Under the pieces are notes generated by a model. That model searched no databases. It was given only the letters and a program-made list of their open reading frames with translations, and had not been told where the DNA came from. Positions 20,073-42,857 of a stretch of DNA of 53,981 bases are shown here, one piece after another. Both the position numbers and the translations under genes were made by a program. Source of the DNA: an uncultured Oscillospiraceae bacterium (lineage in GTDB: Bacteria; Bacillota; Clostridia; Oscillospirales; Oscillospiraceae); the NCBI GenBank assembly GCA_949948775.1, contig CATLHC010000009.1, positions 1 through 53,981 of the forward strand. Reading direction: 5' to 3'. How positions within the stretch are numbered: position 1 is the first letter of the stretch; each line of letters begins with the position of its first letter.

Positions 20073-20279
20073 ATGTGGACGGCATGGCTGTTATTGACGC
20101 TGAACAGTTTATTTTTTACGCTCCGGCTGGCGGGGAACACGGGTTCCTTTCCCCGCGCCCTCACCCGGGAGGAGGAACAGGACTGCCTGGACCGGATGGC
20201 AAAAGGTGACGACGACGCCAGGGATATGCTCATTGAGCACAATCTGCGTTTGGTGGCGCACATTGTAAAGAAGGGATGA
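20073..20279 (+). CDS. sigK: sigK, 5' segment (codons 1-67), interrupted
   Basis: First part of the late mother-cell sporulation sigma factor SigK. The 67 residues begin with a hydrophobic pro-sequence (residues 1-20) of the kind removed by the SpoIVFB protease, and continue with ALTREEEQDCLDRMAKGDDD and IEHNLRLVAHIVKK, the start of sigma region 2, closely matching Bacillus SigK. Immediately after VKK the frame ends in Gly-stop (20274-20279). The next residues expected from SigK, beginning [19 protein letters not shown], are found in frame at 41811. The ribosome site GGAGGTGAT (20060-20068) is near perfect, so translation of the gene has been kept. As it stands it would yield only a 68-residue peptide. 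Confidence 0.92.
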   Translation: MWTAWLLLTLNSLFFTLRLAGNTGSFPRALTREEEQDCLDRMAKGDDDARDMLIEHNLRLVAHIVKKG

Positions 20280-20285
20280 AGCAAA
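20262..20285 (+). other. Left attachment site of the sigK element
   Basis: sigK sequence reads through ATTGTAAAGAAG to 20273; element sequence begins with GGATGAAGC at 20274. The shared crossover triplet with the right end is AAG (20271-20273). The reconstructed empty site reads GTA-AAGAAG-TAC, a short inverted repeat. Confidence 0.7.
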
Positions 20286-20307
20286 AGGAAAAGGACTAAT
20301 AGATGCC

Positions 20308-21786
20308 TCAGAGGCCGCCGTGCCCATTGGTGCCGTCATAGGGTTCATCCTTCATGCACAGGTGGACTGCGCCCACCTTGAAGGTCTTGGGCAGGGCCAG
20401 GATATTGGGATTCGGCCCCACGAATTTCTTCTTCGCATCCTCCAGCGCCTCCTCAAAGGTGGCCCGGGTCTTGAGGCCCATACCCCGGGCGATGCCCGGC
20501 TCCTGGGCGCCCACAATGTAGATGGCGGCGGTGTTCATCTCCGCAATGTGCCCACAGCTCATCATGGAAAACCCGTGGAAGGGGTGGAAGGCGTTGGCAA
20601 AGCGGTATTTGCGGATATACTCCTCATTGGTGGCAAAATATTCACCGTAGCGGTTCATATCCGGCAGAATATTCATATAATCGTGCTGGAACATATTGTA
20701 CAGCTCCCGCAGATAGGGCCAGCGCTCGTCGTGAAAATAGCCGTTGCAGATGGATGAGCAGATGATGACGCAGTTGTCTTTCATCACCCGCTTGTGCCGG
20801 ATAACCTGGGCGGACAGCGCCTGCATCATCTGAATCGGGTTGGTGCCCATGCCATCGCCGTAGTGGAAGGCCTGGGGCATTCCAAACACCATCACATCGT
20901 ACTTCTTCTCCGCCCAGGGCACATAGGTGCGCTTGTCCGCCACTTCCCAGCTCACCGGCATCATCTCCTTGGCATAGCCGGAGAAAATGGCAATTTGACG
21001 GGAATAGGTATCCAGCACCGCGTCGCAGCAGAAGAAGGGATGGCCCATTTTCTCCTCCATCCACATCCCGATCTCGTCAAACTTGGTGCGCATCAGATTC
21101 TTTCCGGACACAGGGGTGAAATCCGACCGGTGCATTACATCGGGGACATGATGGCTGGCAATGCTCCGCCAGTGGGTAATGCCGGTGGCGCAGTGCTTGT
21201 AGCCGCCAGAATAACCGCCATAAGGATTCCCCTGGGTGTGACCAATCAGGATGGGGATGTCGCAGTCGAACACATACCGGTTCATCAGCACCGGGTCGCC
21301 CCGCCGGGTTTTGCCCAGGTCCACCATGTGGTCATAGTCTTCGCTGTCGTGGCTGGTGATCTGATTGGTCCAATAGAACTCATTGAACAGCTCCTCGCCC
21401 AGAATCTGCTTCATCTCGCCCACGGTGGCCCGGGGATGCAACCCGTTGGAAAACAGCAGCAGAATATCCTTCTTCTCCACCCCGGAGGCGTACAGCTCGT
21501 CCAGGCAGGCCCGGATGGACACTTTTCGATGGGCGGTGGGCTGGCAGCCGCCCTTCACGATGTCCGGGATCACAAACACGGCCGTCTTGCCTGGAGCGGC
21601 CAGTTCTCTCAGCGCGGGCATCCCGATGGGATTGCGGATGCTCTCCAGGGTGGCGCTGTACAGGCTGTCCCAGTTCTGGGGCAGGCAGGGCGGGTCGGCC
21701 ACAGTTTCGCCGGGGATAAACACATCGGTGCTGTCGGGCAGGTCGGCGGCCATCATGCCGTGGCCGTATTCAAACTCTAATTTCAT
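20308..21786 (-). CDS. LarA-like (DUF2088) protein, nickel-pincer racemase family
   Basis: 492-residue homologue of the lactate racemase LarA, which uses a nickel-pincer nucleotide. The stretch GNPYGGYSGGYKH corresponds to the LarA segment holding the lysine that carries the cofactor, and ISSNGLHPRAT-like NGLHPRAT and FHPFHG supply histidines. It is about 70 residues longer than LarA (424). Relatives act on other alpha-hydroxy acids, so the substrate is not known. LarB, LarC and LarE, which build the cofactor, are not in the window. ATG 21786 follows AAGGAGGG. It is the last gene of the leftward fba-pfk-tpi group and ends 34 bases from the left att site. Confidence 0.85.
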   Translation of the reverse strand: MKLEFEYGHGMMAADLPDSTDVFIPGETVADPPCLPQNWDSLYSATLESIRNPIGMPALRELAAPGKTAVFVIPDIVKGGCQPTAHRKVSIRACLDELYASGVEKKDILLLFSNGLHPRATVGEMKQILGEELFNEFYWTNQITSHDSEDYDHMVDLGKTRRGDPVLMNRYVFDCDIPILIGHTQGNPYGGYSGGYKHCATGITHWRSIASHHVPDVMHRSDFTPVSGKNLMRTKFDEIGMWMEEKMGHPFFCCDAVLDTYSRQIAIFSGYAKEMMPVSWEVADKRTYVPWAEKKYDVMVFGMPQAFHYGDGMGTNPIQMMQALSAQVIRHKRVMKDNCVIICSSICNGYFHDERWPYLRELYNMFQHDYMNILPDMNRYGEYFATNEEYIRKYRFANAFHPFHGFSMMSCGHIAEMNTAAIYIVGAQEPGIARGMGLKTRATFEEALEDAKKKFVGPNPNILALPKTFKVGAVHLCMKDEPYDGTNGHGGL

Positions 21787-21808
21787 GTGCGCCCTCCTTG
21801 TTGTTGGC

Positions 21809-21880
21809 GTTCTTTTTCTTTTTGTAAAAAGAAAAAGAACCAAAAAGAAAAACTTTTAGGCGCGAAACTGCGTTTCGCGT
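21809..21880 (+). repeat. Dispersed palindromic repeat, copy D
   Basis: GTTCTTTTTCTTTTT (21809-21823) / AAAAAGAAAAAGAAC (21826-21840), perfect 15-bp stem, then CAAAAAGAAAAACTTTTAG. Next comes a second small hairpin, CGCGAAAC-TG-CGTTTCGCG, running to the tpi stop. It lies between the LarA-like and tpi genes. Confidence 0.8.
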
Positions 21881-22717
21881 TTACTCTCCTAAGTAAAGGC
21901 GGATGATCTCCAGGTACTCTTCCGGGTAGAAGCCGATCTCGCCCTGGAACCGGGTCAGGGCGATGAGACCGCCGTCGATCTCCGCGATGGAGGCCAGCAT
22001 GGCGGCGTTGTCCGCCTTCAAACCTCCGCCGTACACCACGTCCATGCCGCCGGTGCGCTCCTTCACGAACCGGGCGATCTTGGTGATGTAGTCCTTGTCC
22101 GCCGGGGTCTTGCCCGGACCGATGGACCACACCGGCTCGTAGCCGATCACCACCCGGCTCTTGTCCACACCATCCAGACCCACATCCAGCTGTTCACCCA
22201 ACACCGCCTCCCATTCGGGCTGCTCCTCGCTGGTTTCGCCGATGCAGTACAGCACCGTCAGCCCCGCGTCCTGGGCGCATTTGATCTCCTGGTTCAGCAA
22301 GCGGCCGACGGCGCCCATGTCCGTCACTCCCGCCTCGGCCAGAATCCCCTTCTTGTCGTTTCGCTCCTCACAATGGCCGATCAGGGTGGACGCGCACCCC
22401 ATGGCTCTCACAATGGAAGCGGGCCGGTTGGTGGTGAAGGCCCCGAAGTTGCCCCCCACCGCCGTGTTCATGCGGTACACCCCTTGGCTGCCCAGCTTCA
22501 CCGGACTGTTTTCGGTCAGAGCGGCCACCGCGCCCAGCAAATGGGCCTCCGGCAGATATTGAACGAATTCCACCTTGGCCGGGTCGTATTTTTTCAGCGC
22601 CTCCTGGGTGCCGCTCACCACAGCCGCGCCCCAGTCCTTTACCGGGGCCAGTCGGTTCACACCCCCCAGCTCTACCGGCACGTCGAACCGCTTCAGATTT
22701 AAATAGATATGCTTCAT
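21881..22717 (-). CDS. tpiA: Triosephosphate isomerase family protein, divergent
   Basis: 278-residue TIM-barrel isomerase. All catalytic positions of TIM are present: Asn7 and Lys9 (YLNLKRF), the histidine in IGHCEERN, and the glutamate in IGYEPVWSIGPGKTP, plus the phosphate-binding YGGGLKADN. Differences from ordinary TIM are the length (about 250 usual), Cys in place of the Ser after the catalytic His, and the unusual NLKRF start. It may interconvert DHAP and glyceraldehyde-3-phosphate or act on a related ketose or aldose phosphate. It sits downstream of aldolase and phosphofructokinase genes, which favours a triose phosphate role. Confidence 0.88.
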   Translation of the reverse strand: MKHIYLNLKRFDVPVELGGVNRLAPVKDWGAAVVSGTQEALKKYDPAKVEFVQYLPEAHLLGAVAALTENSPVKLGSQGVYRMNTAVGGNFGAFTTNRPASIVRAMGCASTLIGHCEERNDKKGILAEAGVTDMGAVGRLLNQEIKCAQDAGLTVLYCIGETSEEQPEWEAVLGEQLDVGLDGVDKSRVVIGYEPVWSIGPGKTPADKDYITKIARFVKERTGGMDVVYGGGLKADNAAMLASIAEIDGGLIALTRFQGEIGFYPEEYLEIIRLYLGE

Positions 22718-22732
22718 ATCAAATCCCCCAAA

Positions 22733-22796
22733 CGCGAAACTTCGTTTCGCGGTCTAAAAGTTCTTTTCGGTTCCTTTTCTTTCAAGAAAAGGAATA
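22733..22796 (-). repeat. Dispersed palindromic repeat, copy E (inverted)
   Basis: Reverse orientation relative to copies A-D. On the minus strand: TTCCTTTTCTT/AAGAAAAGGAA stem (22794-22771), then CCGAAAAGAACTTTTAGACC, then the hairpin CGCGAAAC-GAA-GTTTCGCG (22751-22733). It fills the gap between tpi and pfk. Confidence 0.8.
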
Positions 22797-22806
22797 AACA
22801 GCAGCC

Positions 22807-23967
22807 TTACCTGAGCAGTGCGTACTCCGGGAAATTCCCGCCCATCAGGGGCATGGCGTAGTCGAAGAACCCATCGGCAATCTGATTGCCGCCCACGATC
22901 CATTCCAGGGGGAACTTCTTCTCCACATTGGCCACCTTGTCCAGCGGCACCAGGGATAGAGTGCTGGAATACTTCGGCTCTCTTGCCGCATTGATGGCCA
23001 CCATACAGCCGCTCTCCCCCGCCAGGGCGGACTCCACCGCGAATTTGCCCACGGCATAAGCCTCCTCCCGGTCCACCTGGGATACGTAGGGGATGCTGGC
23101 CCGGCCCAGCAGTCCCGGCTTCTCCGCCCGGGACTTGAGCCCAAGCTTCCGGATGATCTGGTCGGTGATATGCTGGGCCGTGCCGCCGGGCACCGTATGG
23201 CCGAAGCCGTCCACAATCCCCGTGTCCGCCAGGGGCTTGCCGTCCAAGCCGCAGATCCCTTCGCTGACGGTGACCAGCAGGCCCTTGCCCTTTGCGTAGG
23301 CCTTTTCGATGTCGGCCAGCATCCTGTCCTCGTCCACCGGCAGCTCCGGCAGATAAGTGAGCACCTCGCAGTCGGTGAGTCGTGCGGCCATGGCGCTGGC
23401 CGCGGTGACCCATCCGGCGTTGCGGCCCATCAGCTCCAGCACCACCACGTGGATGGGCAGGCCGGAGGCATCCAAAGCCAGCTCGGCGGCGCTCAGGGCG
23501 GCATACCGGGCGGCGGAGCCGAAGCCGGGGCAGTGGTCGGTCAAGTCCAGGTCATTGTCCATGGTCTTGGGGATGCCGATGACCCGGACGTCCAGCCCCT
23601 CCCTCTTGGCCAGCTCGTTTACCTTATTGCAGGTATCCATGGAGTCGTTGCCGCCGTTGTAGAAAAAACAGCCGATGCCAAACCTTTTCAGCGTCTCCAG
23701 CACCGTGGGATAGTCCGCATCGGTGAGTTTCCGCCGGCAGGAACCGATGGCGGAGGCGGGGGTGTGCCCCAGCTTGGTAATGGTGGCGGCGGGCACATCT
23801 GTCAAGTCGATGAGATCCCCTGCCAGAATGCCCTCCGCGCCAAACCGGGCGGCATAGATTTTGTCCGCCTGTCCGGAGGCCCTGGCCGCCTCCACAACCC
23901 CTTGCAGAGAACAGTTGATCACGGCGGTAGGGCCGCCTCCGTGGGCGACAAGAATATTCTTTCCCAT
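22807..23967 (-). CDS. 6-phosphofructokinase, probably diphosphate-dependent
   Basis: 386-residue PfkA-family enzyme forming fructose-1,6-bisphosphate. Two residues that decide the phosphoryl donor point to pyrophosphate: GGNDSMDT has Asp where ATP enzymes have Gly, and PKTMDNDL has Lys where ATP enzymes have Gly. The catalytic TMDND aspartates, MGRNAGW and the fructose-6-phosphate site are present. A PPi enzyme works in both glycolysis and gluconeogenesis. ATG 23967 begins one base after the fba stop, with AAGGGGAT as ribosome site inside fba, so the two are co-translated. Confidence 0.9.
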   Translation of the reverse strand: MGKNILVAHGGGPTAVINCSLQGVVEAARASGQADKIYAARFGAEGILAGDLIDLTDVPAATITKLGHTPASAIGSCRRKLTDADYPTVLETLKRFGIGCFFYNGGNDSMDTCNKVNELAKREGLDVRVIGIPKTMDNDLDLTDHCPGFGSAARYAALSAAELALDASGLPIHVVVLELMGRNAGWVTAASAMAARLTDCEVLTYLPELPVDEDRMLADIEKAYAKGKGLLVTVSEGICGLDGKPLADTGIVDGFGHTVPGGTAQHITDQIIRKLGLKSRAEKPGLLGRASIPYVSQVDREEAYAVGKFAVESALAGESGCMVAINAAREPKYSSTLSLVPLDKVANVEKKFPLEWIVGGNQIADGFFDYAMPLMGGNFPEYALLR

Positions 23968-23968
23968 G

Positions 23969-25126
23969 TCAAATCCCCTTGGCGCGGTAGCGCTCCGCCA
24001 TCTCGTCCAGGCTGACGGATTCGATCAGCGGGGCCTTACCCACGCTGTCAAACTCCACGATCAGCGTGCCCACCACCTCTTTCACGCCCCGCTCAATGCA
24101 GTCCACCACGCGGTCCACATCTTCGTCGGGCACATTGCCATACATCACCGTGTCCATAATGGGAGGCAGGAACACCCGGGGATCGAAAGCGGAGGGGTTG
24201 TCCACCAGCAGCTTGTAGATGCCGCCGATTGAGGCGCTGTCCCGCAGGGCGGGGCAGTCCCGGAACAGCTCCCGCAGGTTTCGGGTGACCGCCAGGCGGA
24301 TGTCGGTATCCACATTGATCTTGCGGATGCCCAGCTTGGAGACCTCCTTGAGCTGCTCCTTCTTGATACCGTAGGCGTCGTGGATGTCGCCGCCCAGGGC
24401 ATTGATCTCGGATACGATGTACTGGGGCACCGTGGAGGAGCCGTGGCTCACCAGCGTGCCCTCAATGCCCTCGTGCATCATGCACTCCTTGGTGGCGATG
24501 GCGATCTCCTTGCGGATGACGGTGTCCCTGCCTTTGTTGGCCCCGTGTTTGGTGCCGTAGCTGATGGCCAGGGCGTCCACCCCGGTCTGGCGGAAGAATT
24601 TCACCGCGTCCATTGGATTGGTGTAGGTGGAATTGGCGGCAAAGACGTGGTCCTCCACTCCGGCCAGTACACCCAGCTCGCCCTCCACGGTGACGCCCCG
24701 CTCATGGGCGTACTTCACCACCTCGCGGGTCAGTTCCACGTTCTCCTCGAAGGGCAGAGAGGAACCGTCGATCATAACGGAGGTGTATCCCCCGGCGATG
24801 GCGGCCACGCAGGACTCCAGATTCTTGCCGTGGTCCAGGTGTAGGGCTACGGGGATGGGGCTGGTCTCGGCGTATTTCCTCACCGCGTTGGCAATGTTCA
24901 GCGCGCCCTTCTTTTTGTCCTCCAAGGTTCCGTTGGCGAAGTCGGTGCGGCCGCCCATGAAGGCGTTGGCGAGATCCGCCCCCTGCAGGATAGCTGCGGA
25001 CCGGAACATTTCATGGACCTCAATCACCGCCTTGGCCTGGCACACGGCGTTGACGTTGAACGCACCCTGGGCATAGTTGTACTTCTCGGTGGCATCCAGA
25101 ATCGCTTTCATTGGAACAAGGGCCAT
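23969..25126 (-). CDS. fba: Class II fructose/ketose-bisphosphate aldolase, long form
   Basis: 385-residue zinc-dependent aldolase. Metal and substrate motifs: HLDHGKNLESC (zinc His and Asp), VEGELGVLAGVED, SYGTKHGANKG, SHGSSTVP and GIRKINVDTDIRLA. It is 75-100 residues longer than common class II enzymes, with an N-terminal expansion before LHLDHG and a C-terminal tail after the barrel. It may cleave fructose-1,6-bisphosphate or a tagatose-type bisphosphate. A consensus promoter lies upstream, and pfk, tpi and the LarA-like gene follow in the same direction. Confidence 0.9.
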   Translation of the reverse strand: MALVPMKAILDATEKYNYAQGAFNVNAVCQAKAVIEVHEMFRSAAILQGADLANAFMGGRTDFANGTLEDKKKGALNIANAVRKYAETSPIPVALHLDHGKNLESCVAAIAGGYTSVMIDGSSLPFEENVELTREVVKYAHERGVTVEGELGVLAGVEDHVFAANSTYTNPMDAVKFFRQTGVDALAISYGTKHGANKGRDTVIRKEIAIATKECMMHEGIEGTLVSHGSSTVPQYIVSEINALGGDIHDAYGIKKEQLKEVSKLGIRKINVDTDIRLAVTRNLRELFRDCPALRDSASIGGIYKLLVDNPSAFDPRVFLPPIMDTVMYGNVPDEDVDRVVDCIERGVKEVVGTLIVEFDSVGKAPLIESVSLDEMAERYRAKGI

Positions 25127-25179
25127 AAGACAAAACTCCTCTCCACATTTATTTAAAAAATTTAAAAAATATATTGTTT

Positions 25180-25208
25180 ATTATATAAGAAAATCTTTCC
25201 CTTGTCAA
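25180..25208 (-). promoter_or_regulatory. Consensus promoter of the fba-pfk-tpi operon
   Basis: On the minus strand TTGACA (25208-25203), 17-base spacer, TATAAT (25185-25180): both boxes match consensus. An AT-rich leader of about 50 bases precedes the fba ribosome site. Confidence 0.88.
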
Positions 25209-25245
25209 CTCCTTTTTGGCTATAATGCGAATGCATTTCCCGCAA

Positions 25246-25289
25246 AAAACGGCAGCCGCCACAGAATAATCTGTGGCGGCTGCCGTTTT
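25246..25289 (-). terminator. Terminator of the ROK repressor gene
   Basis: AAAACGGCAGCCGCCACAG (25246-25264) / CTGTGGCGGCTGCCGTTTT (25271-25289), perfect 19-bp stem with a 6-base loop, followed on the minus strand by a run of T. It insulates the fba promoter. Confidence 0.9.
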
Positions 25290-25313
25290 GATACAGCACT
25301 GCGGAATAAATTC

Positions 25314-26546
25314 TTATAAAGTGTCTTCCAGAAAAAATTCTTTTACCGCGATGGAGGCCGCTCCCCTCGCGCCGCGGTACGTATCATAAGGCAAAAAAGT
25401 AAACTCTGTCGTCTCCCTGCCGGTGCTCAGAGTGTGCTTTTTTACCTCGTCCAACAATTGAGCGCAATTTTGCTTCACATTGAAAATGCGTCCATCAACC
25501 AGCACGGTCTTGGGGCTGACCAGGCTGACCACATTGGCTAAGGCCGCGCCCAGGTATCTGATACAACTGTGCAGGATACGTTCCACGGTCTCATCCCCGC
25601 GCCGCTGCGCCTCAAGCACATGTTCAATGGTCAATTTCTCCGGATCGCCGCAGATTTCGGTCAAAACAGTCGGCCTGTCGCCATAATACAGGCTCGCCCT
25701 GCACTGGCTCACCACCGCCTTCTCGCTGGCCAACGCCTCCAGACAGCCGTAATTCCCGCAGGTTGTGCACAGGGGGCCGTCCTGCTGGATGACCGTATGA
25801 CCAATTTCGCCCGCCGCGGCAAACTCGCCGTAGATCACATTTCCATTTATCATAAGATGGCACGCAACGCCATAGGAAACGTAAAAATAGGCCACAGGGT
25901 CCCCCAAAAGCGCACGGTCAAACAAATCCGCCTCGATGATTCTGGCTCTCACATTGTTGTCCACCTTGACCTGAATTCCGATTTTTTCGGACAAGTCCCG
26001 GGCCAAAAAATGGCCGCCCCAGCCGTTGCGAAACGTGCTGTTGATCTTTCCGGCCGTACCGTCAATGAGACCTGGCATCACCACCCCCACCCCCAGGACT
26101 TTGTCCTGGGGCAGTTTTGCCGTACGGATAAAGTCCGGTATGCTCTCCACAAGCATCTCCATCGTGGAGTCATAGCTTCCCATATCGGTATACGCGCTGG
26201 TACTGGCAGCCACCATCCTGCCCATCAGATCCGTTAAAGCGCAACTGATCCCATAGGGTCCCAAATCCACGCCGCAGAAATAGTGCGCCTCCGGCACAAA
26301 CTCCAGCTTGACCGGGCGCCTTCCGGGGGTCCGGCCCGTATCCCGGCCCTCCTCCGGAACAGACAGCTCCCTCAGCAGACCCTGGGCGATCATTGGGTTC
26401 ACGCTGGTGGTGATGGTGGGAGAGGTGAGAGAGAGGCGCTGGGCAATCTCGGTGCGGGAAATTGGGCTGTAACGGTAAACCGCTTTTTTAATCAGACTGA
26501 CATTTTTCTGCTTGATCAGTGGCAAATTCCCGCCTCTTTCCATCAT
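25314..26546 (-). CDS. ROK-family transcriptional repressor (NagC/XylR type)
   Basis: 410-residue regulator: winged-helix DNA-binding domain (residues 10-75, ISRTEIAQRLSLTSPTITT) joined to a ROK sugar-binding domain (CGVDLGPYG, VGVVMPGLID, EIGHT). The zinc site CTTCGNYGCLEALAS is intact. As the protein carries a DNA-binding domain, repressor is preferred to sugar kinase. ATG 26546 follows AAAGGGGGA. It is divergent from a transporter and amino-sugar operon, and inverted repeats of NagC-operator type occur in the shared intergenic region, so it probably controls that operon and itself in response to an amino-sugar derivative. Confidence 0.9.
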   Translation of the reverse strand: MMERGGNLPLIKQKNVSLIKKAVYRYSPISRTEIAQRLSLTSPTITTSVNPMIAQGLLRELSVPEEGRDTGRTPGRRPVKLEFVPEAHYFCGVDLGPYGISCALTDLMGRMVAASTSAYTDMGSYDSTMEMLVESIPDFIRTAKLPQDKVLGVGVVMPGLIDGTAGKINSTFRNGWGGHFLARDLSEKIGIQVKVDNNVRARIIEADLFDRALLGDPVAYFYVSYGVACHLMINGNVIYGEFAAAGEIGHTVIQQDGPLCTTCGNYGCLEALASEKAVVSQCRASLYYGDRPTVLTEICGDPEKLTIEHVLEAQRRGDETVERILHSCIRYLGAALANVVSLVSPKTVLVDGRIFNVKQNCAQLLDEVKKHTLSTGRETTEFTFLPYDTYRGARGAASIAVKEFFLEDTL

Positions 26547-26648
26547 GAGGACAATTCCCCCTTTCAAGAAAAGCTAAAATCACAGACCGGAACCGCTGCC
26601 CGGACCATTCGCCGCGCCATTCCATCCAGGATGCGCTTTTCATTTCTT

Positions 26649-26677
26649 AGTATATGAACCTATCTCACAAAAATCAA
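26649..26677 (-). promoter_or_regulatory. Promoter of the ROK repressor gene
   Basis: On the minus strand TTGATT (26677-26672), 17-base spacer, TATACT (26654-26649). Confidence 0.7.
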
Positions 26678-26701
26678 CCCTATTCTTTAAAATAAACATT
26701 G

Positions 26702-26716
26702 ATTAGTGCCCATAAT
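26702..26716. promoter_or_regulatory. Candidate ROK operator 2
   Basis: ATTA-GTGCCCA-TAAT (26702-26716), about 25 bases upstream of the ROK -35 box. It shares the half-sites ATTA/TAAT and the core TGCCCA with operator 1, in a 15-base frame. Confidence 0.5.
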
Positions 26717-26802
26717 TTAGGAAAAGACAGGAAATCATTTTCTATATATCCTTATATTATATTTTTATTTTAATAAATAAAGGTCGCTGTCCGCACATTA
26801 AA

Positions 26803-26824
26803 CAATTATTATGCCCAATAATTG
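26803..26824. promoter_or_regulatory. Candidate ROK operator 1
   Basis: CAATTATT-ATGCCC-AATAATTG, perfect 8-bp inverted repeat with a 6-base centre, about 30 bases upstream of the transporter promoter. The ATTATT...AATAAT arrangement resembles NagC-type sites. The 430-bp divergent region 26547-26979 otherwise holds only the two promoters and AT-rich sequence. Confidence 0.6.
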
Positions 26825-26852
26825 TGAGTTAAGTAGAAAATTTTTAATCTAA

Positions 26853-26881
26853 TTGACAACTCCTCTTTGGTATGTTATTTT
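26853..26881 (+). promoter_or_regulatory. Promoter of the transporter/amino-sugar operon
   Basis: TTGACA (26853-26858), 17-base spacer, TATTTT (26876-26881), about 100 bases before the lipoprotein start. Confidence 0.7.
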
Positions 26882-26979
26882 TTAAATTAAAGAAATATCT
26901 GTCTGCCCTTGGATATTTCTCAACAGCAGTATTCCCCGTCTCCTCAGGCCCAGTTATGATTCAGAAAGGAATGGAAAAA

Positions 26980-28065: not shown

Positions 28066-28123
28066 CCGCTCGGGAGACCCTTGCCCGGACGTCAAGCTCT
28101 ATGGAAGCCAAGTAATATTTTAC

Positions 28124-28158
28124 GGGATTCCCGCCTCCCGTCAGGAGGCGGGAATCCC
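28124..28158 (+). other. Stem-loop between binding protein and permease genes
   Basis: GGGATTCCCGCCTCC (28124-28138) / GGAGGCGGGAATCCC (28144-28158), perfect 15-bp stem without a T tract. This position is typical of hairpins that protect the binding-protein mRNA or reduce read-through so that more binding protein than permease is made. The rest of the 248-base gap shows no gene. Confidence 0.7.
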
Positions 28159-28313
28159 AAATTACAAACCTAAAATCGCTTTGTCCCGCCTGCGTTCTGA
28201 GCTGAGGTATTCTATTTCCTCAGTTCTATTTTATCAAGAAAGGCGGTCGTTCCTCCGCCCGCGCCGGTGTGTTCAGGCGCGGCGGCAGCGAGACGGCCGG
28301 CAAGGTGGTCTCT

Positions 28314-31841: not shown

Positions 31842-31907
31842 GCCTTCCTGCTCTGCGGGATGCGTTGCGTTCCAGAACACGTGAGATAATCATTGGAGGT
31901 ATGAATA

Positions 31908-33914: not shown

Positions 33915-33978
33915 GAACTTGTAAGGAAATCAGGCATTTTAGGGTTCGGGAATCTTTTACGAAAGGAAGTTGACCGAT

Positions 33979-35922
33979 ATGCCGTATCCACACCTGCTCT
34001 CCCCCATCCAAATCGGTAAAATCACCGTAAAAAACCGAGTATTTATGCCGCCGCTGTCCACCAACCTGGCGGACAAGGGCTATGTCACCGACGCGCTAGT
34101 TGCCCACTATGCCGCCCGGGCCAAGGGCGGCGTAGGGCTTATCGTCACCGAGGTGACCACGGTGGAGCCCACCTATATCTATCTCCCCGGCGATATGTCC
34201 ATCTGCGACGACTCCTACATCCCCGGCTGGCGGAAGCTCACCGAAGCCGTCCACCAATATGGAGCAAAGATTCTGCCCCAGCTCTTCCACCCGGCCTATA
34301 TGGCCTTCCCCATTCCCGGCACACCCCGGCTCATCGCACCCTCCAACGTGGGTCCCTACTACGCCAAGGAGGCCCCCAGAGCGGTCACAAAAGAGGAACT
34401 GCAAGTTATCATCCGCCAGTTCGGCGAGGCGGCCAGGCGGGTCCAGACCGCCGGAGGCGACGGCGTGGAGATCCACGCCGCCCACGCCCACGGCCTCCTG
34501 GGCGGCTTCCTGTCCCCGCTGTACAATAAGCGCACCGACGAATACGGCGGCGATCTCAACGGTCGCCTGCGCCTTACACTGGAGGTCATCGCAGAGGTGC
34601 GCCGCCGGTGTGGGGAGGACTTTATCATCGACGTGCGCCTGTCCGGCGACGAATACACCGACGGCGGGCAGAACCTGAACGACGCGGTCTATGTGGCCAA
34701 GCAGCTGGAAAAGGCCGGCGTGGACTTCCTCCACATCTCCGGCGGCACCACCGTCATGCGGGGCAGCTCCATCCCGGCGCCGGGCACCCCCATGGGTTCC
34801 CACGTCCGGCTGGCGGAGGAGATCAAAAAGCGGGTCTCCCTCCCCGTGGCCACCGTGGGGCGCATCACCGAGCCCTGGCTGGCGGAGGAGCTGATCGCCA
34901 ACGGCAAGACGGACATCTGCATGATGGGCCGGGCCAACCTGTGCGACCCGGAGTTCGTCACCAAGGCCGCGGAGGGCCGGGAGGAGGACATCCGCCCCTG
35001 CATCGGCTGTCTGCGCTGCCTCAACGGCATCATGTTCGGCAAGCGGGTGTCCTGTACGGTGAATCCCTCCCTGGAACCGGACAATGAGGACACACTCACC
35101 CCGGCGGAGGTCAAAAAGAATGTTCTGGTCATCGGCGGCGGCCCCGCCGGGATGGAGGCCGCCTTTGTGGCGAAAAAACGGGGCCATCACGTGGTGCTGT
35201 GTGAAAAGGAGGAAGAACTGGGCGGACAGCTCCGCACCGCAGCGGTGCCCATTGCCAAGCAGGACTTGACAAAGGTAACCAAGTATATGGTCAGGAAGCT
35301 GGAGCAGGCCGGAGTGGAAATCCGCCTCAACTGCACGGTAACGGAGGAGCTTCTCCGGGGCGAGTTCACCGGTTACGAGGTCGTCGCCTGCGCTGGGGCG
35401 GCCCCCATCGTGCCCCAGACGTTCACCGGCTTCAAACAGTGGATGACGGCGGACGACGTGCTGGCGGGCCGGGCCTTCCCCGGGCGGAAGGTGGTGGTCC
35501 TGGGCGGCGGCGCGGTGGGCTGTGAGACGGCGGATTACCTGGCCCCGCTGGTCAACGACCTATTTCCCCGCAACCGGGAGATCACCGTGCTGGAGATGGC
35601 CCCCGGCGTGATGCTCACCGAGTCCGGCCCGGGCCGCAGTCTGCTGGTCCAGCGGATACAGAGAAAGGGCGTGGAGCTCATCTGCGGCGCGAAAGTGGAG
35701 CGAATAGACGAAAACGCCATCGTCTACACTAAGGACGGACGGGAGCACACCATTTCGGATGCAGATACCCTGGTGCTGGCGGTGGGCTACCGCAGCGACC
35801 CCGCCCTGGAGGAGCTGCTGAAAGCCTGCGGCATGACCTATCACATCATCGGCGACGCCCGGAAGCCGGGCAATTTGAAAGACGCCATCACCCAGGGCTA
35901 TGAGACTGCCAAGGAGCTATAA
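33979..35922 (+). CDS. OYE-type NADH:flavin oxidoreductase / 2,4-dienoyl-CoA reductase-like, first
   Basis: 647-residue three-domain reductase. Residues 1-360 form the FMN barrel (LTVKN-like KITVKNRVFMPPL, EIHAAHAHGLLGGFLSP, GRITEPWLAEELI). The cysteine cluster CIGCLRC plus a downstream Cys near residues 335-355 binds 4Fe-4S. The second half holds FAD- and NAD(P)-binding Rossmann motifs (VIGGGPAGMEAA, VVLGGGAVGCETAD). Such enzymes reduce enones or enoates anaerobically; BaiCD, BaiH and FadH are characterised examples. ATG 33979 follows AAAGGAAG. The substrate is unknown; the tandem partner follows 37 bases later. Confidence 0.9.
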   Translation: MPYPHLLSPIQIGKITVKNRVFMPPLSTNLADKGYVTDALVAHYAARAKGGVGLIVTEVTTVEPTYIYLPGDMSICDDSYIPGWRKLTEAVHQYGAKILPQLFHPAYMAFPIPGTPRLIAPSNVGPYYAKEAPRAVTKEELQVIIRQFGEAARRVQTAGGDGVEIHAAHAHGLLGGFLSPLYNKRTDEYGGDLNGRLRLTLEVIAEVRRRCGEDFIIDVRLSGDEYTDGGQNLNDAVYVAKQLEKAGVDFLHISGGTTVMRGSSIPAPGTPMGSHVRLAEEIKKRVSLPVATVGRITEPWLAEELIANGKTDICMMGRANLCDPEFVTKAAEGREEDIRPCIGCLRCLNGIMFGKRVSCTVNPSLEPDNEDTLTPAEVKKNVLVIGGGPAGMEAAFVAKKRGHHVVLCEKEEELGGQLRTAAVPIAKQDLTKVTKYMVRKLEQAGVEIRLNCTVTEELLRGEFTGYEVVACAGAAPIVPQTFTGFKQWMTADDVLAGRAFPGRKVVVLGGGAVGCETADYLAPLVNDLFPRNREITVLEMAPGVMLTESGPGRSLLVQRIQRKGVELICGAKVERIDENAIVYTKDGREHTISDADTLVLAVGYRSDPALEELLKACGMTYHIIGDARKPGNLKDAITQGYETAKEL

Positions 35923-35959
35923 AGTCCCACACGTTCAACATCAGAAAGGATTGAAATTC

Positions 35960-37978
35960 ATGGGTAAAAACTCTCCTCTGCTCCAGCCGCTGAAGGTGGG
36001 CGGCCACACGTTGAAAAACCGCGTCATGTTCCCTCCCCTCACCACCGGATACGAGGAGCGGGACGGCTCCATCGGCCCCCGCAGCTTCCACTTTTATGAG
36101 CGGCTGGCCAAGGGCGGTGTGGGCTACATCGCCATCGGCGACGTGGCTCCGGTGAACACCGCCTCCCCCACCCCCAAACTGTGTGACAACAGCCAGATTC
36201 CCACCTTTCAGAAGCTGGCCGACGCGGTCCACGTCTATGGCTGCAAGCTGGCGCTGCAAATTTTCCACCCTGAATACGACGTCCCCGGCGTAGGAAAGAT
36301 GATCGTTGGCTCCATGATGGCGGGCAAGGCCGCCCAGGCGGCAAAAGAGGCCGGGGACATGGAGACCTTTCAGGCCAAGATGGCGGAATCCGAAAAGCTG
36401 CGCGCCGAGGCTTACGCCAAGCTGCGCCACGATATGAAGAGCTTTGTGGATGAAGCTACGGTGGAGCAGCTCGACGGTATCAAGAAGGCCATGGCCGACT
36501 GCGCCCGCCGGGCGGCTCAGGCGGGCGTGGACGCAGTCGAAATCCATGGCGACCGGCTGGTGGGTTCCCTGTGCTCGGAGCTTATCAACCACCGGCAGGA
36601 CCAGTACGGTGGGTCCTTTGAAAACCGGGCGCGCTACGCCCTGGAAGTAGTGGCGGCGCTCAGGGAAGCGGCCCCCGGCCTGATTTTGGAGTACAAGCTG
36701 CCCATCATCACCGTCAACCCGGACGGCTCCCTGCGGGGCAAGGGCGGGCTGATGCCCGAGGAGGCGAAAAAATTCGCCGTCCTGCTGGAGCGGGCGGGGG
36801 TGGATATGATCCAGGCCGCCCAGGCCAACCACACCGGCAACATGGGGGACACCATCCCGCCCATGGGCACGGTGCCCTACAACTGGACCCTGCCCGTCGC
36901 GGCGGAGATCAAGAAGCTGGTGTCCATCCCCGTGGCCACCGTGGGCCGGGTGGTCACGGCGGAGGCGGGCGAGGCGATTTTGAACGCTGGACAGGCGGAC
37001 GTCATCGGTTACGGCCGTTCCCTGCTCACCGACCCGGACATCGCTTTGAAGGTTGAGCGGGACGAGCCCATCCGCACCTGCCTGAACTGCAACAAGGGCT
37101 GTGTGGATGCCATCCAGAATCGGAAATACATCTCCTGCGTCCTCAACGCAGAGAACGGCGACGAGTCCACCATCTTCATCCGTCCGGGCGGCGGAGAGAA
37201 AAAGGTCGTAGTTGTGGGCGCCGGCATCGCCGGGCTGGAAGCCGCCCGCGTGGCGGCGAAACGGGGCCATTCTGTGACCGTCTACGACACCGCCGATAAA
37301 ATGGGCGGGCAAATTCTGCTGGCGGCGGCGCCCCCCAGGAAGTCCGAGATTCTGCGCTCGGTGGAGTATTACGAGAAAATCCTGCCCTCTCTGGGCGTAG
37401 AGATTAAGCTGGGTCAGACCTGCGGCGTGGATGAGATGAACGCCGCCGACGCCGTCATCGTGGCGGTGGGCGCCCATAACATCACCCTGCCCGTACCGGG
37501 CGCGGACGGAGGCAACGTGGTCTCCGCCTGGGACGTGCTGGCGGGAAAGGTCCGGGTATCCGGCAAGTGCGCCGTCATCGGCGGCGGATTGGTGGGAACC
37601 GAGACGGCGGAGTTCCTGCTGGAGCGGGGTTGTCAGGTGGCTGTCGTCGAAATGCTGGACAAGATCGCCGCCGGGGAATCCTCCACCATCCTGCCCATCA
37701 TTATGAAGGACTTCGCCGACCATAACGTGGAACAGTTTGTTAAGACCCAGGTCACCGCCATTATCGCCGACGGCGTGGAGGCGGTGAACACTGAGACAAA
37801 AGAACCCGTTTCCATCCCCTGTAACTGGGTGGTCATGGCCGTGGGCTCCAAGAAGGTTCCCTTCTCCACGGAAGGCGTCACGGCGCCGGTGAAGTTTGTG
37901 GGCGACTGCTCCGGCGAGCGCACCGCCAGCATCGCCGAGGCCATCCGAAGCGGTTACAACGCCGCCAACGAGATTTAA
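35960..37978 (+). CDS. OYE-type NADH:flavin oxidoreductase / 2,4-dienoyl-CoA reductase-like, second
   Basis: 672-residue relative of the preceding enzyme with the same domain order: FMN barrel, CLNCNKGC cysteine cluster, FAD motif VVGAGIAGLEAARVAAKRG and NAD motif VIGGGLVGTETAEFLLERG. Its barrel has a charged helical insertion of about 45 residues (around 115-165). The usual active-site HGAHGYL segment is changed to IHGDRLVGSL, so it probably acts on a different substrate from its neighbour. ATG 35960 follows AGAAAGGATT. A strong terminator follows. Confidence 0.9.
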   Translation: MGKNSPLLQPLKVGGHTLKNRVMFPPLTTGYEERDGSIGPRSFHFYERLAKGGVGYIAIGDVAPVNTASPTPKLCDNSQIPTFQKLADAVHVYGCKLALQIFHPEYDVPGVGKMIVGSMMAGKAAQAAKEAGDMETFQAKMAESEKLRAEAYAKLRHDMKSFVDEATVEQLDGIKKAMADCARRAAQAGVDAVEIHGDRLVGSLCSELINHRQDQYGGSFENRARYALEVVAALREAAPGLILEYKLPIITVNPDGSLRGKGGLMPEEAKKFAVLLERAGVDMIQAAQANHTGNMGDTIPPMGTVPYNWTLPVAAEIKKLVSIPVATVGRVVTAEAGEAILNAGQADVIGYGRSLLTDPDIALKVERDEPIRTCLNCNKGCVDAIQNRKYISCVLNAENGDESTIFIRPGGGEKKVVVVGAGIAGLEAARVAAKRGHSVTVYDTADKMGGQILLAAAPPRKSEILRSVEYYEKILPSLGVEIKLGQTCGVDEMNAADAVIVAVGAHNITLPVPGADGGNVVSAWDVLAGKVRVSGKCAVIGGGLVGTETAEFLLERGCQVAVVEMLDKIAAGESSTILPIIMKDFADHNVEQFVKTQVTAIIADGVEAVNTETKEPVSIPCNWVVMAVGSKKVPFSTEGVTAPVKFVGDCSGERTASIAEAIRSGYNAANEI

Positions 37979-38095: not shown

Positions 38096-38356
38096 GAGAG
38101 AAACCCGTGCAGAAGATGAAACCATTTTTCTGCACCCCCGCCGCCATCGCCCGGGGGATGACGGCTGTCAAATCCGGCTCGCCAGGCGCTGAGCGGTGAA
38201 CGGGTACCCGGTCGTTTGAAGTAGATACCCTGTTTTGCAGCGATGACCGGCATCGGAATATTATCTCCAACGGGAGCATGGAATCATTTTCTAACCGCCT
38301 TGAGAAATGTATTCTCATACGGCAGAAAAAATCGTACACAGAGGAAGTGGCTGTAT
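38096..38356 (+). other. Long structured 5' leader, no gene recognised
   Basis: About 260 bases between promoter and start. It contains a series of hairpins: GTGCAGAA (38107-38114) / TTCTGCAC (38128-38135), the CCCCCG/CGGGGG pair just after it, and a GGGTA/TACCC pair near 38200-38230. No known riboswitch class could be matched by eye. It may be a regulatory leader or the remains of an RNA gene. Confidence 0.35.
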
Positions 38357-38932
38357 ATGAACAGACTTTATCCAGTGATTTTTGGAGTACTGGTGTTGCC
38401 GGCACTCCTGTTAAGCGGCTGTACCAGCGACAGCTCAGGCAAGGCATCGGTAAGCAGCCCTGAACCGGAAACCGTCAGCGCGGCGCCCACTGAACCGCCT
38501 GCCGCGCAGGTCTCGTTTGAAGGAACGGACCTGGACGGAAACCCCGTTTCGTCTGCGGTATTCTCCCAATCAAAGCTCACAATGGTTAACGTGTGGGCCA
38601 CCTATTGCAATCCCTGCCTGCGGGAGATGCCGGAGCTTGGTGAACTGGCGGCGGAGTACAACGCCGGAGAGTTCCAAATCATCGGCATCGTCAGCGACGT
38701 GATGGAGGGTGCGGATCAGTCACAGGTGGAGCATCTGGTCCAACAGACGGGCGCAAACTATCCCCACCTGCTTTTGAACCAGTCGATCTATGACGCGCTT
38801 CTGACCGATGTCTCCGGCGTACCGACCACCTTTTTCATTGATGAAACCGGAGTAGTTTTAGGCCGAGTGGTTGGGGCAAGGGAAAAATCCGTGTGGAAGG
38901 AGATCATCAATGAGCTTTTGGCAGCGGAATAA
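38357..38932 (+). CDS. TlpA-like thioredoxin-fold lipoprotein
   Basis: 191-residue lipoprotein: signal peptide ending in LLLSGC, a Ser/Pro/Glu linker, and a thioredoxin domain with the redox pair in NVWATYCNPCLREMPEL (CNPC) and the cis-proline GVPTTFFID. It acts outside the membrane as a thiol-disulfide reductant. ATG 38357 is taken because it starts the signal peptide and has GAGGAAG upstream. It forms a unit with the CXXC micro-protein and the membrane ferredoxin that follow; the latter could supply electrons. Confidence 0.88.
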   Translation: MNRLYPVIFGVLVLPALLLSGCTSDSSGKASVSSPEPETVSAAPTEPPAAQVSFEGTDLDGNPVSSAVFSQSKLTMVNVWATYCNPCLREMPELGELAAEYNAGEFQIIGIVSDVMEGADQSQVEHLVQQTGANYPHLLLNQSIYDALLTDVSGVPTTFFIDETGVVLGRVVGAREKSVWKEIINELLAAE

Positions 38933-39062
38933 GCGCCGCGTTTGGATATTGGGTGTCTTGGCCGGAGCTCTCTTTCTAGCCGCCGGCGCTTTTCAAGGAC
39001 AGTTTGCTGTGATCTGGAAGAAGGCTGTGATGATTTGCCTGGAATGCATCGGGATCGGGTGA
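38910..39062 (+). CDS. CD1871A-family CXXC micro-protein
   Basis: 50-residue protein with a single membrane helix (about residues 11-28) and the C-terminal motif ICLECIGIG, in which the two cysteines form CLEC. This is the signature of the small CD1871A-type family that occurs next to TlpA-like and polyferredoxin genes in Clostridia. It overlaps the tlpA-like gene by 23 bases and is followed after four bases by the ferredoxin gene. The CXXC may pass electrons or bind metal; no function is proven. Confidence 0.82.
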   Translation: MSFWQRNKRRVWILGVLAGALFLAAGAFQGQFAVIWKKAVMICLECIGIG

Positions 39063-39066
39063 CGCC

Positions 39067-39897
39067 ATGAAACGACTTCGACTGGCGGTGCAGCTGCTGT
39101 TCACCATCGTGACAAACGGATACATGTATGGCTTTCTGAACGGGAAAATCTATCGCGGCCGCTTGAAATACGCCTGTGTCCCGGGATTAAACTGCTACTC
39201 CTGTCCAGGGGCCGTTGCCGCGTGCCCGATCGGGGCGCTCCAGGCCCTGCTGAACCGGCAGGGTTTCCAGATCCCGTTCGCCGCGCTGGGCTTCTTCTTC
39301 CTGTTTGGGAGCCTGCTCGGACGGTTTATCTGCGGCTGGCTATGCCCTTTTGGACTGGTACAGGATCTTCTGCACAGAATTCCTGTCTTCCAAAAGAAAA
39401 AACGCCTGCCCCATCACCACATTCTGAAACATGGAAAATATGTCGTGCTGATTCTTTTGGTGTGTGTCGGCTCCATGTTTTTGTTTGGGGGATTTGCGAA
39501 AGTCCCGGCGTTCTGCAAATATCTGTGTCCATCCGGCACCCTATTCGGCGCGCTTCCCCTGCTCGGCGCAGATGAAGCTCTGCGAAGCCAAGCCGGCGGC
39601 CTATTTTTCTGGAAGCTGGGGATCTTGATCGGCATCGGGCTGCTCTCTGTGAAGGTTTTCCGGCCCTTCTGTCAATATCTGTGCCCGCTGGGGGCGATTT
39701 ATGGCTGGTTCAATCGATTCAGCCTTGTGCAGATCCAATGGGATGAGGGGCAATGTGTCTCCTGCCACGCCTGCGAAAAGGCCTGCCCGGCGGCCCTCTC
39801 TCTCCGAGAAATCTCCCGCTCCCCGGAGTGCATCCGGTGTGGGAAATGTGTGGACGCCTGCCCACAAAAATGCCTGCATTTTTGCGGTAAGGGGTAA
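39067..39897 (+). CDS. NapH/MauN-like membrane 4Fe-4S polyferredoxin
   Basis: 276-residue protein with about four membrane helices and three cytoplasmic CxxxCP elements (FICGWLCPFG, FCKYLCPSG, FCQYLCPLG) plus a C-terminal double-cluster ferredoxin domain (CVSCHACEKACP, CIRCGKCVDACP). An additional cysteine group CYSCPG is near the N-terminus. Proteins of this type carry electrons across or along the membrane to outside redox partners. The adjacent TlpA-like lipoprotein and CXXC peptide are plausible partners in a thiol-reduction chain. Confidence 0.9.
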   Translation: MKRLRLAVQLLFTIVTNGYMYGFLNGKIYRGRLKYACVPGLNCYSCPGAVAACPIGALQALLNRQGFQIPFAALGFFFLFGSLLGRFICGWLCPFGLVQDLLHRIPVFQKKKRLPHHHILKHGKYVVLILLVCVGSMFLFGGFAKVPAFCKYLCPSGTLFGALPLLGADEALRSQAGGLFFWKLGILIGIGLLSVKVFRPFCQYLCPLGAIYGWFNRFSLVQIQWDEGQCVSCHACEKACPAALSLREISRSPECIRCGKCVDACPQKCLHFCGKG

Positions 39898-39933
39898 AAA
39901 CCACAAGAAGTTAATCAAATTGACTTTCACGCC

Positions 39934-39969
39934 AAATGCCAGGTGGAACTCATCCGCCTGGTATTTTTT
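39934..39969 (+). terminator. Terminator of the tlpA-like operon
   Basis: AAATGCCAGGTGG (39934-39946) pairs with CCGCCTGGTATTT (39954-39966) over 13 positions including two G-U pairs, followed by TTT. Confidence 0.75.
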
Positions 39970-40007
39970 ATTCTTATAAACATATTCATAAATTGAGGTG
40001 ATGCAAA

Positions 40008-40190
40008 TTGGAAAGCGCACAGCGAGAGCTGATGAGCGTCCTGCTGGATGCGGTCTACACCCGAGGTCTTTTGTCGAAAACCACCTATTTAAAAGCGGTC
40101 GATTTGGCACATTCCACGCTGGATATTCCCCCATTTTTCCAGTATCCCGTGTGCTGGACAGAGGAGGCGAAGCAATGTGAATATCCTTAA
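40008..40190 (+). CDS. 60-residue protein upstream of the recombinase
   Basis: Starts at TTG 40008 behind a good site (GAGGTGAT, 39995-40002) and overlaps the recombinase start by 14 bases, so the two are co-translated. The sequence contains the helical stretch LLDAVYTRGLLSKTTYLKAV, like the short helical proteins often found just before serine recombinases. A role as recombination directionality factor is suggested only by size and position (SprB of SPbeta has 58 residues). No family was recognised with certainty. Confidence 0.6.
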   Translation: MESAQRELMSVLLDAVYTRGLLSKTTYLKAVDLAHSTLDIPPFFQYPVCWTEEAKQCEYP

Positions 40191-41844
40191 AATCCGCAAT
40201 GAAATGCGGAATGGGAAAACCATTTTCGATCTCCCCCTGCGGGTAACCTTCTACGCACGGGTGTCCACCGATAAGGACGAGCAGCTCAACAGCCTGGAAA
40301 ATCAAGTGCAGTATTACACCCAGTTCATCCAGGAAAAGCGAAACTGGACCTATATCTCAGGCTATGTGGACGAGGGCATCAGCGGGACAAGCACAAAAAG
40401 GCGGGATAGCTTCAATCGGATGATAGCGGATGCCAAAGCGGGGCGCTTTGACTTTATCGTCACGAAAGAGATATCCCGCTTTTCCCGTTCCACCCTGGAC
40501 AGCATCAAATACACTCAGGAGCTTCTGGAACACGATGTGGGGGTGCTGTTTCAGAACGACAATATCAACACCCTGGACAGCGACAGTGAGTTCCGTTTGG
40601 TCGTCATGGCCGGAGTGGCTCAAGATGAGGTGCGCAAGCTGTCTGAGCGGCTGAAATTCGGCTTCCGGCAGGCTATCAAAAACGGCCATGTGCTGGGCAA
40701 CGACAGGTTGTGGGGATATGACAAAAAGGATTGTGTGCTCACCATCAACGAGAACGAGGCTCAGGTGGTGCGGCGGATTTTCGACCTCTATGCCAACCAA
40801 CAGATGGGCATCCGGCGTATCTCTCAAACCCTGTATGACGAAGGCTTCACCAGCCGTCAAGGCAACGCCTTTAACGTCCTGACCATCCGACACATTCTCT
40901 GCAATCCAAAATACAAAGGCTGGTACTGCGCCAACAAATCCCAGACGGTGGACTATCGAAGCAAACGGAAGGTATTCCTGGACGAAAGTGAATGGGTAAT
41001 GTATCCCGACCCATCCGTTCCCGCCATCGTATCCGAGGAACTGTGGGATCGGGCCAACGCGCTCTACAAGCGCCGCAGTCAGCAGATGATGTCCCATCAA
41101 AGCGCCGCCGAGTTTCACAACCGCTATCCATACAGCGGAAAGATTATCTGTGAGGAGCATAGTGCCAGCTATCACCGGCAGGTAATCAAAAGCTCCAAAG
41201 ATGAAACAGAAACCTGGCAATGTAGGGAGTATCGCAGCCGTGGGCGGGCCGGGTGTTCCGCCCCTCAACTGAGGACCACAGAGCTGGACCAGATCATGGC
41301 CAGTATATTCAACCAACTGGTTCAAGATAGACCAGCTATCATCGGCGCATTGGTGAAGGTGATCCAGTTGCTCCCGGACAAGCACGACTACGCCCAGGAC
41401 GCCCAACATGTTCAGGAGGATATCGCCACCGTCCAGGCAAAAAAGGACCGCCTGCTGGAAATGAGCATCGAGGGCATCATCTCCATGGCAGAATTCAAGC
41501 AGCGCAACGACGGTTTTAATGATCAAGTCGAGGTTTTAGAAAACCGTTTGACGACACTCCAGGCAGAAGCGGAAAGGGGCCGGAAAACCACCGAACAGCT
41601 TGGTGAGATTAGAAGCGCCTTGGAGCAGGAACTCTCCTTCCAAAATGGCATTAATTCCGCCCTAATAACCACAATTTTAGACCATATCGTGGTCAAAAAG
41701 GGCAGTACAAAAGAGAGAATACACCTTGATATCCACCTAAAATTTGGCGACCCCTGCGGGGTCGTCTTTGACCGGCCAAGTTCTTCCTTCCGCTTCAACC
41801 ATCCAAAAAGTACTACACCCCCAGCGGCGACCAGGATGACCTAA
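40177..41844 (+). CDS. Large serine recombinase of the sigK element (SpoIVCA-like)
   Basis: 555-residue large serine recombinase. The N-terminal resolvase domain has the nucleophilic serine in [12 protein letters not shown] (near residue 28) and the conserved [12 protein letters not shown] and [11 protein letters not shown]. It is followed by a recombinase domain, a zinc-ribbon ([10 protein letters not shown] and [14 protein letters not shown]) and a coiled coil (about 410-480). GTG 40177 is preceded by GGAGG. Low-GC spelling at the 3' end differs from neighbours. The last 11 codons and the stop lie beyond the att site in sigK DNA, so excision would change its C-terminus. Role: site-specific excision that rejoins sigK, by analogy with SpoIVCA. 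Confidence 0.88.
41798..41822 (+). other. Right attachment site of the sigK element
   Basis: Element sequence ends with CATCCAAAAAG (41800-41810); sigK sequence resumes at TACTACACC (41811). The 3' end of the recombinase gene runs across this site, so its last 11 codons and its stop are sigK DNA. Confidence 0.7.
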
Positions 41845-42047
41845 TCTCCATTGGGACCATCGGATTGATTAAAGGGGTATCGACGTTCAAGCCGGATAAA
41901 AACGTCCGGCTCGCCACCTACGCAAGCCGGTGCATTGAAAATACTATTCACTCACAACGGCTCAAAAGGCTCTCAATTAGAGTCTCAGCGGCGCTTCATT
42001 TGAGCATAAGATATGCCCATCTTTCTGTGATAAAACTTTTTGATTAG
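41811..42047 (+). pseudogene. sigK: sigK, internal segment (codons 68-111), broken again
   Basis: In the frame starting at 41811 the DNA encodes [20 protein letters not shown] and then [24 protein letters not shown]: region 2 of SigK, continuing exactly where the 5' segment at 20073-20273 stops. After CIEN (41942) the match ends, and an unrelated tail runs to a stop at 42045-42047. SigK should continue EILMHLRA with regions 3 and 4, which are missing from the window. The break is in the CIENE motif, the position at which the classical skin interrupts sigK in Bacillus. Either a second intervening element starts here or the 3' end has been lost. Confidence 0.85.
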
Positions 42048-42850: not shown

Positions 42851-42857
42851 GCCGACA

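Follow-up and report, generated by a model that had tools for sequence, protein, structure and literature searches.

A probable sigK-intervening element at codon 66 in an uncultured Oscillospiraceae bacterium, with further interruptions of the same gene

Results

sigK is split at codon 66 by a segment with shared ends

We analyzed a window of 53,981 nt, which is the entire contig C9 (CATLHC010000009.1) of the 2.82-Mb draft genome G000 of an uncultured Oscillospiraceae bacterium (174 contigs, 89.4% complete), and observed that its sigK gene is present in two pieces separated by a 21,537-bp segment. Judging from the sequence, this segment is very likely an integrated, excisable sigK-intervening element, belonging to a recombinase family that targets codon 66 of the gene across the Oscillospirales. 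Both pieces, identified by sequence match and supported by the ratio of nonsynonymous to synonymous substitution (dN/dS), lie on the forward strand: piece 1 (codons 1–65) at 20073–20267 and piece 2 (codons 66–111) at 41805–41942. On the same strand, the joints are marked by attL (20247–20303, approximate limits; core AA at 20268–20269) and attR (41781–41830, approximate limits; core AA at 41805–41806).

The initial annotation had placed the pieces at 20073–20273 (67 codons) and 41811–41942 (44 codons), joined in frame across a shared AAG as the crossover. We confirmed the positions and the in-frame join. However, codon 66 is AAC in the left copy of 5 of 12 split genomes, while lysine is kept in all 8 right copies read, so that the simplest choice for the core is the AA of codon 66, one codon to the left; the join is in frame either way. 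The predicted arms, GTA/TAC for the empty site and CATCC/GGATG for the circle, are present. By sequence, recombination of attL with attR would restore sigK, and the circle released would be 21,537 bp. An uninterrupted sigK, which the annotation had suggested seeking in related genomes, does occur there (G022, 97% identity over the first 67 residues); this identity and the whole genes in relatives rule out a chance resemblance to sigK.

We searched 42 genomes of the genus (G numbers) for sigK pieces and found the first piece in 36, while six other drafts gave none. Scored by open frame, junction sequence or adjoining recombinase, codon 66 (site 1) is uninterrupted in 22 of the 36 and split in 14 (G000, G001, G015–G019, G027, G033–G035, G061, G062 and G064). 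The left element end, AAGGGATGAAGCAAAAGGA, is nearly letter-identical in G027, G033, G064 and G018, and the right end, CTTCCGCTTCAACCATCCAAAAAG, occurs in close form in G027, G033 and G035; the interiors differ between elements with common ends. These shared ends rule out a rearrangement that merely placed sigK pieces beside a recombinase. The annotation had also considered that the 21.5 kb might be normal chromosome in relatives, which is half the case: much of the cargo is chromosomal there, yet the sigK pieces end in att sites common to other elements. For piece 1, comparison of the window with 11 other genomes gave dN/dS values of 0.021–0.092 in 10 (one not computable), and for piece 2, comparison with seven gave 0.009–0.048 in five (two not computable). 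On these ratios, the pieces are under purifying selection.

A recombinase family is tied to codon 66

The right junction is adjoined, as first annotated, by the gene for a large serine recombinase of 555 aa (40177–41844, forward strand; Pfam Resolvase 3.9e-31, Recombinase 1.8e-23). Within the genus, the coordinates of its 12 best matches (57–100% identity) place every one of them at a site-1 sigK piece, and the next matches reach 40–41%. For a wider comparison in the GTDB collection, we retained the best 80 of 362 relatives as loci (L numbers). In 74 of the 80, no more than 700 nt separate the recombinase 3′ end from a sigK piece. The recombinase stands at the right element end in 43 of these 74 and at the left end in 31, indicating that the element is inverted in the latter; orientation switches at least five times on well-supported branches of a quick tree of 75 recombinases. 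Among the six remaining loci, L093 and L105 end within 16 nt, L060 has a free attP, in L086 the first piece is 4.6 kb off, and no piece was seen in L124 or L134. Judged from these loci, codon 66 of sigK is a standing target of the family across the Oscillospirales. The annotation had read a separate insertion about 45 codons before the classical skin site, and it was right about the different codon and the genuine ends; the position is not peculiar to this genome.

We ruled out a known phage source for the recombinase, as none of the 471 phage records matched reached 60% identity (top match 39.5%). Among 14 viral-contig loci, some of which end within the recombinase and are uninformative, one has a convincing sigK piece beside it, and a junction-pattern search of viral contigs found none. 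This locus, L157 (IMGVR_UViG_3300010163_002043, 5001–6811), is classed as viral and carries the site-1 recombinase with an adjoining sigK piece that reads CIENA, and so is probably split at site 2, described below, as well.

A small open reading frame and a promoter-like motif precede the recombinase

Immediately 5′ of the recombinase lies an open reading frame (ORF) of 60 aa with a TTG start (40008–40190, forward strand). An ORF of about this length, mostly overlapping the recombinase start, is kept in 72 of the 80 loci as well as in the window; it has no Pfam or NCBIfam match and is a candidate recombination directionality factor. Further upstream, GTATTTT-N13-CATATTCAT (39961–39989, forward strand) resembles a promoter of a mother-cell sigma factor. 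When 73 upstream regions were scored against a sigma-E consensus, 53% reached the threshold of 11/14, compared to 11% of mononucleotide shuffles. The stricter motif KHATNTT-N12-16-CATA, defined after this scoring, is found in 38 of the 73 loci, in comparison to a mean of 0.4 and a maximum of 2 in 100 dinucleotide shuffles; for 746 other ORFs in these loci the figure is 0.4%. Motifs of this CATA type are retained upstream of the site-1 operon across loci with different surroundings. A mapped sigma-E promoter of Clostridioides difficile reads ATA-N16-CATATATA (PMC3789822). These data suggest that expression of the site-1 operon may be restricted to the mother cell.

Flintibacter muris carries an unoccupied attP

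In F. muris (L060; NZ_CALPCP010000003.1, 168–11655), thioredoxin-like, 4Fe-4S, small-ORF and recombinase genes are followed by CTTCCGCTTCAACC-CTTGTTTAACGGAACA-AGCAAAAGG, an attP in which the right arm runs into the left arm and no sigK sequence separates them. By hand count, the conserved arms are 16 nt apart, the same distance as predicted for the circle of the window. Read from the recombinase side, the attP core is TT, as expected since the tree places L060 among the inverted elements. The sigK gene of F. muris is whole through the first two sites and broken at the third (L171). An element outside sigK implies that it is not bound to sporulation alone. The site-1 core genes and free attP stand beside several other serine recombinase genes, and perhaps one element sits inside another here.

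sigK is interrupted at two further sites

The 44-codon piece does not continue to the sigK 3′ end. After CIEN the frame reads TIHSQRLKR, marking a second interruption (site 2, after codon 111); this and a third (site 3, in the ISRSYV frame near the sigK 3′ end) had been missed in the initial annotation. The left part of element 2 occupies 41943–53981, up to the contig end. Its TIHSQRLKR junction recurs in G015 and G017, and 41973–42296 is 95% identical to G015. The CIEN site is, we presume, the classical skin codon. A right junction of site 2 with an adjoining recombinase of another family is present in G016, G017, Anaeromassilibacillus sp. An200 (L109) and L138, while G015 and G023 show the right junction only. 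Over the 80 loci, site 2 is split in 15, whole in 32 and not seen in 33.

Of the 80 loci, 11 have a broken site 3 and 20 a whole one, and in 49 the site was not seen. The break in L072 (= G061), counted among the 11, may reflect decay; two stop codons lie in the C-terminal part of its sigK (G061:C28:22962–23291). Site 3 is also broken in G013, where another sequence follows, and in G014, G063 and F. muris; right junctions were found in G000:C108, L082, G014, G063 and G062. The last 21 sigK codons of the genome under study are on contig C108, behind the third element, and the state of its sigK is thus read from two contigs. A stretch to the right of this last piece is shared with G012. Among the eight genomes searched, the recombinase on C108 has 89% identity to those in G063 and G014; the next long match reaches 40% and short fragments up to 57%. 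Each of the three sites has its own recombinase family, and the second and third junctions rule out that sigK is cut only once. In An200 alone among the 80 loci, sites 1, 2 and 3 are all interrupted on a single contig; that contig stops short of the last piece.

The upstream regions of these other recombinases differ from those at site 1. The strict motif occurs in one of seven site-2 and site-3 recombinases, 271 nt upstream, and close upstream in none of the seven; by eye, several have TTGACA/TATAAT-like boxes. These elements may follow the plan of skinCd of C. difficile, with a constitutive recombinase and a controlled factor.

The first element carries metabolic genes in this contig

As the initial annotation had stated, metabolic genes lie within the element in this contig. 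From the left end, they comprise a Lar_N protein, triosephosphate isomerase (TIM), phosphofructokinase (PFK) and class II fructose-bisphosphate (FBP) aldolase (20308–25126, reverse strand; Pfam); a ROK-family regulator (25314–26567, reverse; Pfam); three genes of an NMT1-type ABC transporter with a NagB-like protein, NagA and a SIS-domain protein (26872–32660, forward; Pfam, NCBIfam); an AraC-type regulator (32856–33800, reverse; Pfam); and two NADH:flavin oxidoreductases (33970–37978, forward; Pfam), which lie on the chromosome in G012 and G026. Thioredoxin-like and NapH-like 4Fe-4S genes (38243–39897, forward; Pfam, NCBIfam) form a recurrent core cargo. No phage family was found among 16 interior proteins run against Pfam. 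With its glycolytic paralogues (TIM, PFK and aldolase), Lar_N, transporter and NagA/NagB, 20308–31841 resembles a catabolic island of unassigned substrate. Excision would not remove the sole triosephosphate isomerase; a second copy, 35% identical, is encoded on G000:C30.

The DNA at 20305–31825, including the Lar_N–aldolase block, is collinear with G063:C72 at 80–87% identity; that contig is only 13.8 kb long and so shows little of its own context. L142 (G063:C72, NagA end) and L143 (G063:C57, low end) terminate in identical sequence, perhaps an insertion sequence, and from this shared end the metabolic block of G063 might lie inside its site-3 element. Related cargo genes are grouped on sigK-free contigs, for example in G022, G028 and G029, and in G015 the Lar_N–TIM–PFK–aldolase block ends 3.8 kb upstream of sigK, on the opposite side from that in the window (L139, G015:C12 11400–16167).

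Across the loci, 21 closed elements span 3.0–54.8 kb, among them a 5.0-kb element of core genes alone (L097). The thioredoxin-like/4Fe-4S pair accompanies the recombinase in 4 of the 21 and also stands beside it in G034 and F. muris. Other cargo includes GH94 in the closed L137, a carboxylesterase in L136, and RpiR, PTS and GH1 genes on the M-side contig of G033, where the element is not closed. Element 2 is largely collinear with G034:C67 (43073–53981, 75–84% identity). As a large part of the cargo belongs to the ordinary chromosome of relatives, it appears to have been captured: chromosomal blocks probably came to lie inside a core element of about 5 kb.

Discussion

A proposed excision pathway and its alternatives

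We propose that in the mother cell a sigma-E-type promoter would turn on a two-gene operon, encoding the ~60-aa candidate directionality factor and the large serine recombinase. The recombinase would then join attL to attR at the AA core, linking V65 to K66 and releasing the 21,537-bp circle. The second element (after codon 111) and the third (near the 3′ end), if the pieces follow this order in the genome, would also have to be excised, each by its own recombinase, before complete sigma-K is made. The forespore chromosome would retain all three, so that the germline loses nothing; as the deleting cell dies, cargo could be tolerated. A later rearrangement most likely brought the metabolic operons into the small core element, which consists of the thioredoxin-like, 4Fe-4S, small-ORF and recombinase genes. 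The mother cell probably must cut out genome blocks, here including metabolic genes, to finish the spore.

Several observations weigh against this proposal. The analysis used assembled sequence alone, and no excision product was seen. This draft lacks about 97 sigK codons and the right end of element 2, and no site-2 recombinase was found in it at E ≤ 1e-20. The strict promoter motif is not present in 35 of the 73 loci. L086 and L124 have no abutting sigK piece despite sequence room, nor does L134 (686 nt), and G018 and G062 are split at site 1 with no close recombinase in their drafts. Finally, some relatives, Flavonifractor porci and Flintibacter porci, are described as non-spore-forming (PMC12050419).

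For the cargo, the main rival is a chimeric contig: the site-1 element would be real but about 5 kb long, and the ~18 kb of metabolic operons up to attL an assembly join, leaving sigK split without metabolic cargo. The window is one contig of a 174-contig draft, only ~37 nt separate the core from the first cargo block, relatives have a large part of the cargo in the chromosome at a distance from sigK, element 2 shows the same pattern, and L097 consists of core genes alone. However, the left break falls just beyond the stop codon of an intact gene, 20305–31825 is continuous as in G063, and carbohydrate genes occur in other elements (closed L137, unclosed G033). We consider an assembly join unlikely, if the most serious of the alternatives. 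We give somewhat less weight to an ordinary integrative element that uses sigK as its attachment site and excises by its own life cycle, with sporulation merely tolerating it. Elements of 36.8 and 55 kb with ORFs of up to 2,980 codons resemble larger mobile elements, the attP of F. muris is outside sigK, and the seven site-2 and site-3 recombinases lack a strict motif close upstream. Against this, site-1 operons in different surroundings have retained the CATA-type motif upstream, and a sporulating host needs whole sigK in its mother cell, as established for skin elements (PMC5025042). Least probable, and in our view quite improbable, is that sigK is being lost in a lineage that has ceased to sporulate, the split gene being a remnant. 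The stop codons in G061 and the non-spore-forming relatives (PMC12050419) would fit such a loss, but dN/dS is 0.009–0.092 where computable for the split pieces of this and other genomes, and the frame is preserved across the joints.

Comparison to known intervening elements

Like the skin element of Bacillus subtilis (48 kb, SpoIVCA), the proposed element cuts sigK and has a large serine recombinase at its edge. Excision of skin restores sigma-K in the mother cell, as we would expect here. In contrast to site 1, skin occupies another codon, its cargo is phage-derived and it is a single element. The skinCd element of C. difficile (CD1231, CD1234) combines a recombinase with a small directionality factor, for which we have a candidate here, and is also known in inverted orientation (PMC5025042). 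Its recombinase is expressed constitutively, and mother-cell specificity is confined to the factor, whereas here both genes appear to share one operon and one motif; the portion of that paper available to us reports no second sigK element.

Non-phage intervening elements are already known from gin (PMC5595907) and island IV (PMC10745906). In the Bacillus cereus group, the 22-kb island IV interrupts sigK at nt 195; a recombinase similar in length to that of the window (545 aa) stands beside the 5′ piece, and excision of the island during sporulation has been demonstrated (PMC10745906). It differs in its restriction-modification cargo and single insertion; it might occupy the same site as codon 66 (nt 195 being the end of codon 65 here). 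That source gives AATGA as the B. subtilis core and places AATGA-type insertions at nt 423; here AATGA would begin at nt 331, and the numbering of the paper may thus be shifted. The gin element, which lies in gerE of B. cereus ATCC10987, pairs a serine recombinase with a further factor (PMC5595907); the host gene is another one, and gin has three recombinases within a single element, whereas here a single gene holds three elements. For the yin element in yabG, small factors of 53 and 72 aa have been described (PMC10747680).

Insertions in sigK at varied sites are in print (PMC5025042, PMC10745906, PMC13141910), and the rearrangements of sporulation genes that we found there are single insertions in one gene. 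The accessible parts of PMC12946183 and PMC11536998 hold nothing on split sigK. Our search of the open literature, with most subscription papers outside its scope, turned up no description of a sigK gene with several elements, nor of this family in the Oscillospirales.

Implications

Here, one recombinase family stands at a fixed sigK codon in many Oscillospirales, cultured isolates such as Anaeromassilibacillus sp. An200 and Pseudoflavonifractor capillosus An386a included, and up to three families cut the gene. We are inclined, with some reserve, to a broader interpretation: that one sporulation gene of a gut clade is targeted by three independent recombinase systems, that the mother cell makes three programmed deletions, shedding tens of kilobases that include catabolic operons, and produces sigma-K only after all three joints are formed, and that a terminal cell line is a safe store for mobile cargo kept in the germline. 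It becomes testable why sigK attracts elements, whether the requirement for several excisions serves to check the timing of late sporulation, and whether, with a terminal line, a bacterium can carry cargo without burdening its spores. Genome-based prediction of sporulation may score a split sigK as absent or as a pseudogene.

Neighboring sequence

An aminotransferase-like ORF (18531–19799) lies between a histidine-kinase gene and sigK in the window, and in G027 and G033 a histidine-kinase gene is immediately upstream of sigK. Apart from this gene on the left and the stretch on C108 shared with G012, little is conserved, and we set synteny aside as a guide to the empty locus. Within the left part of element 2, 42310–43060 contains short stretches matching many genomes of the genus (e.g. 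42757–42846), which resemble gene fragments.

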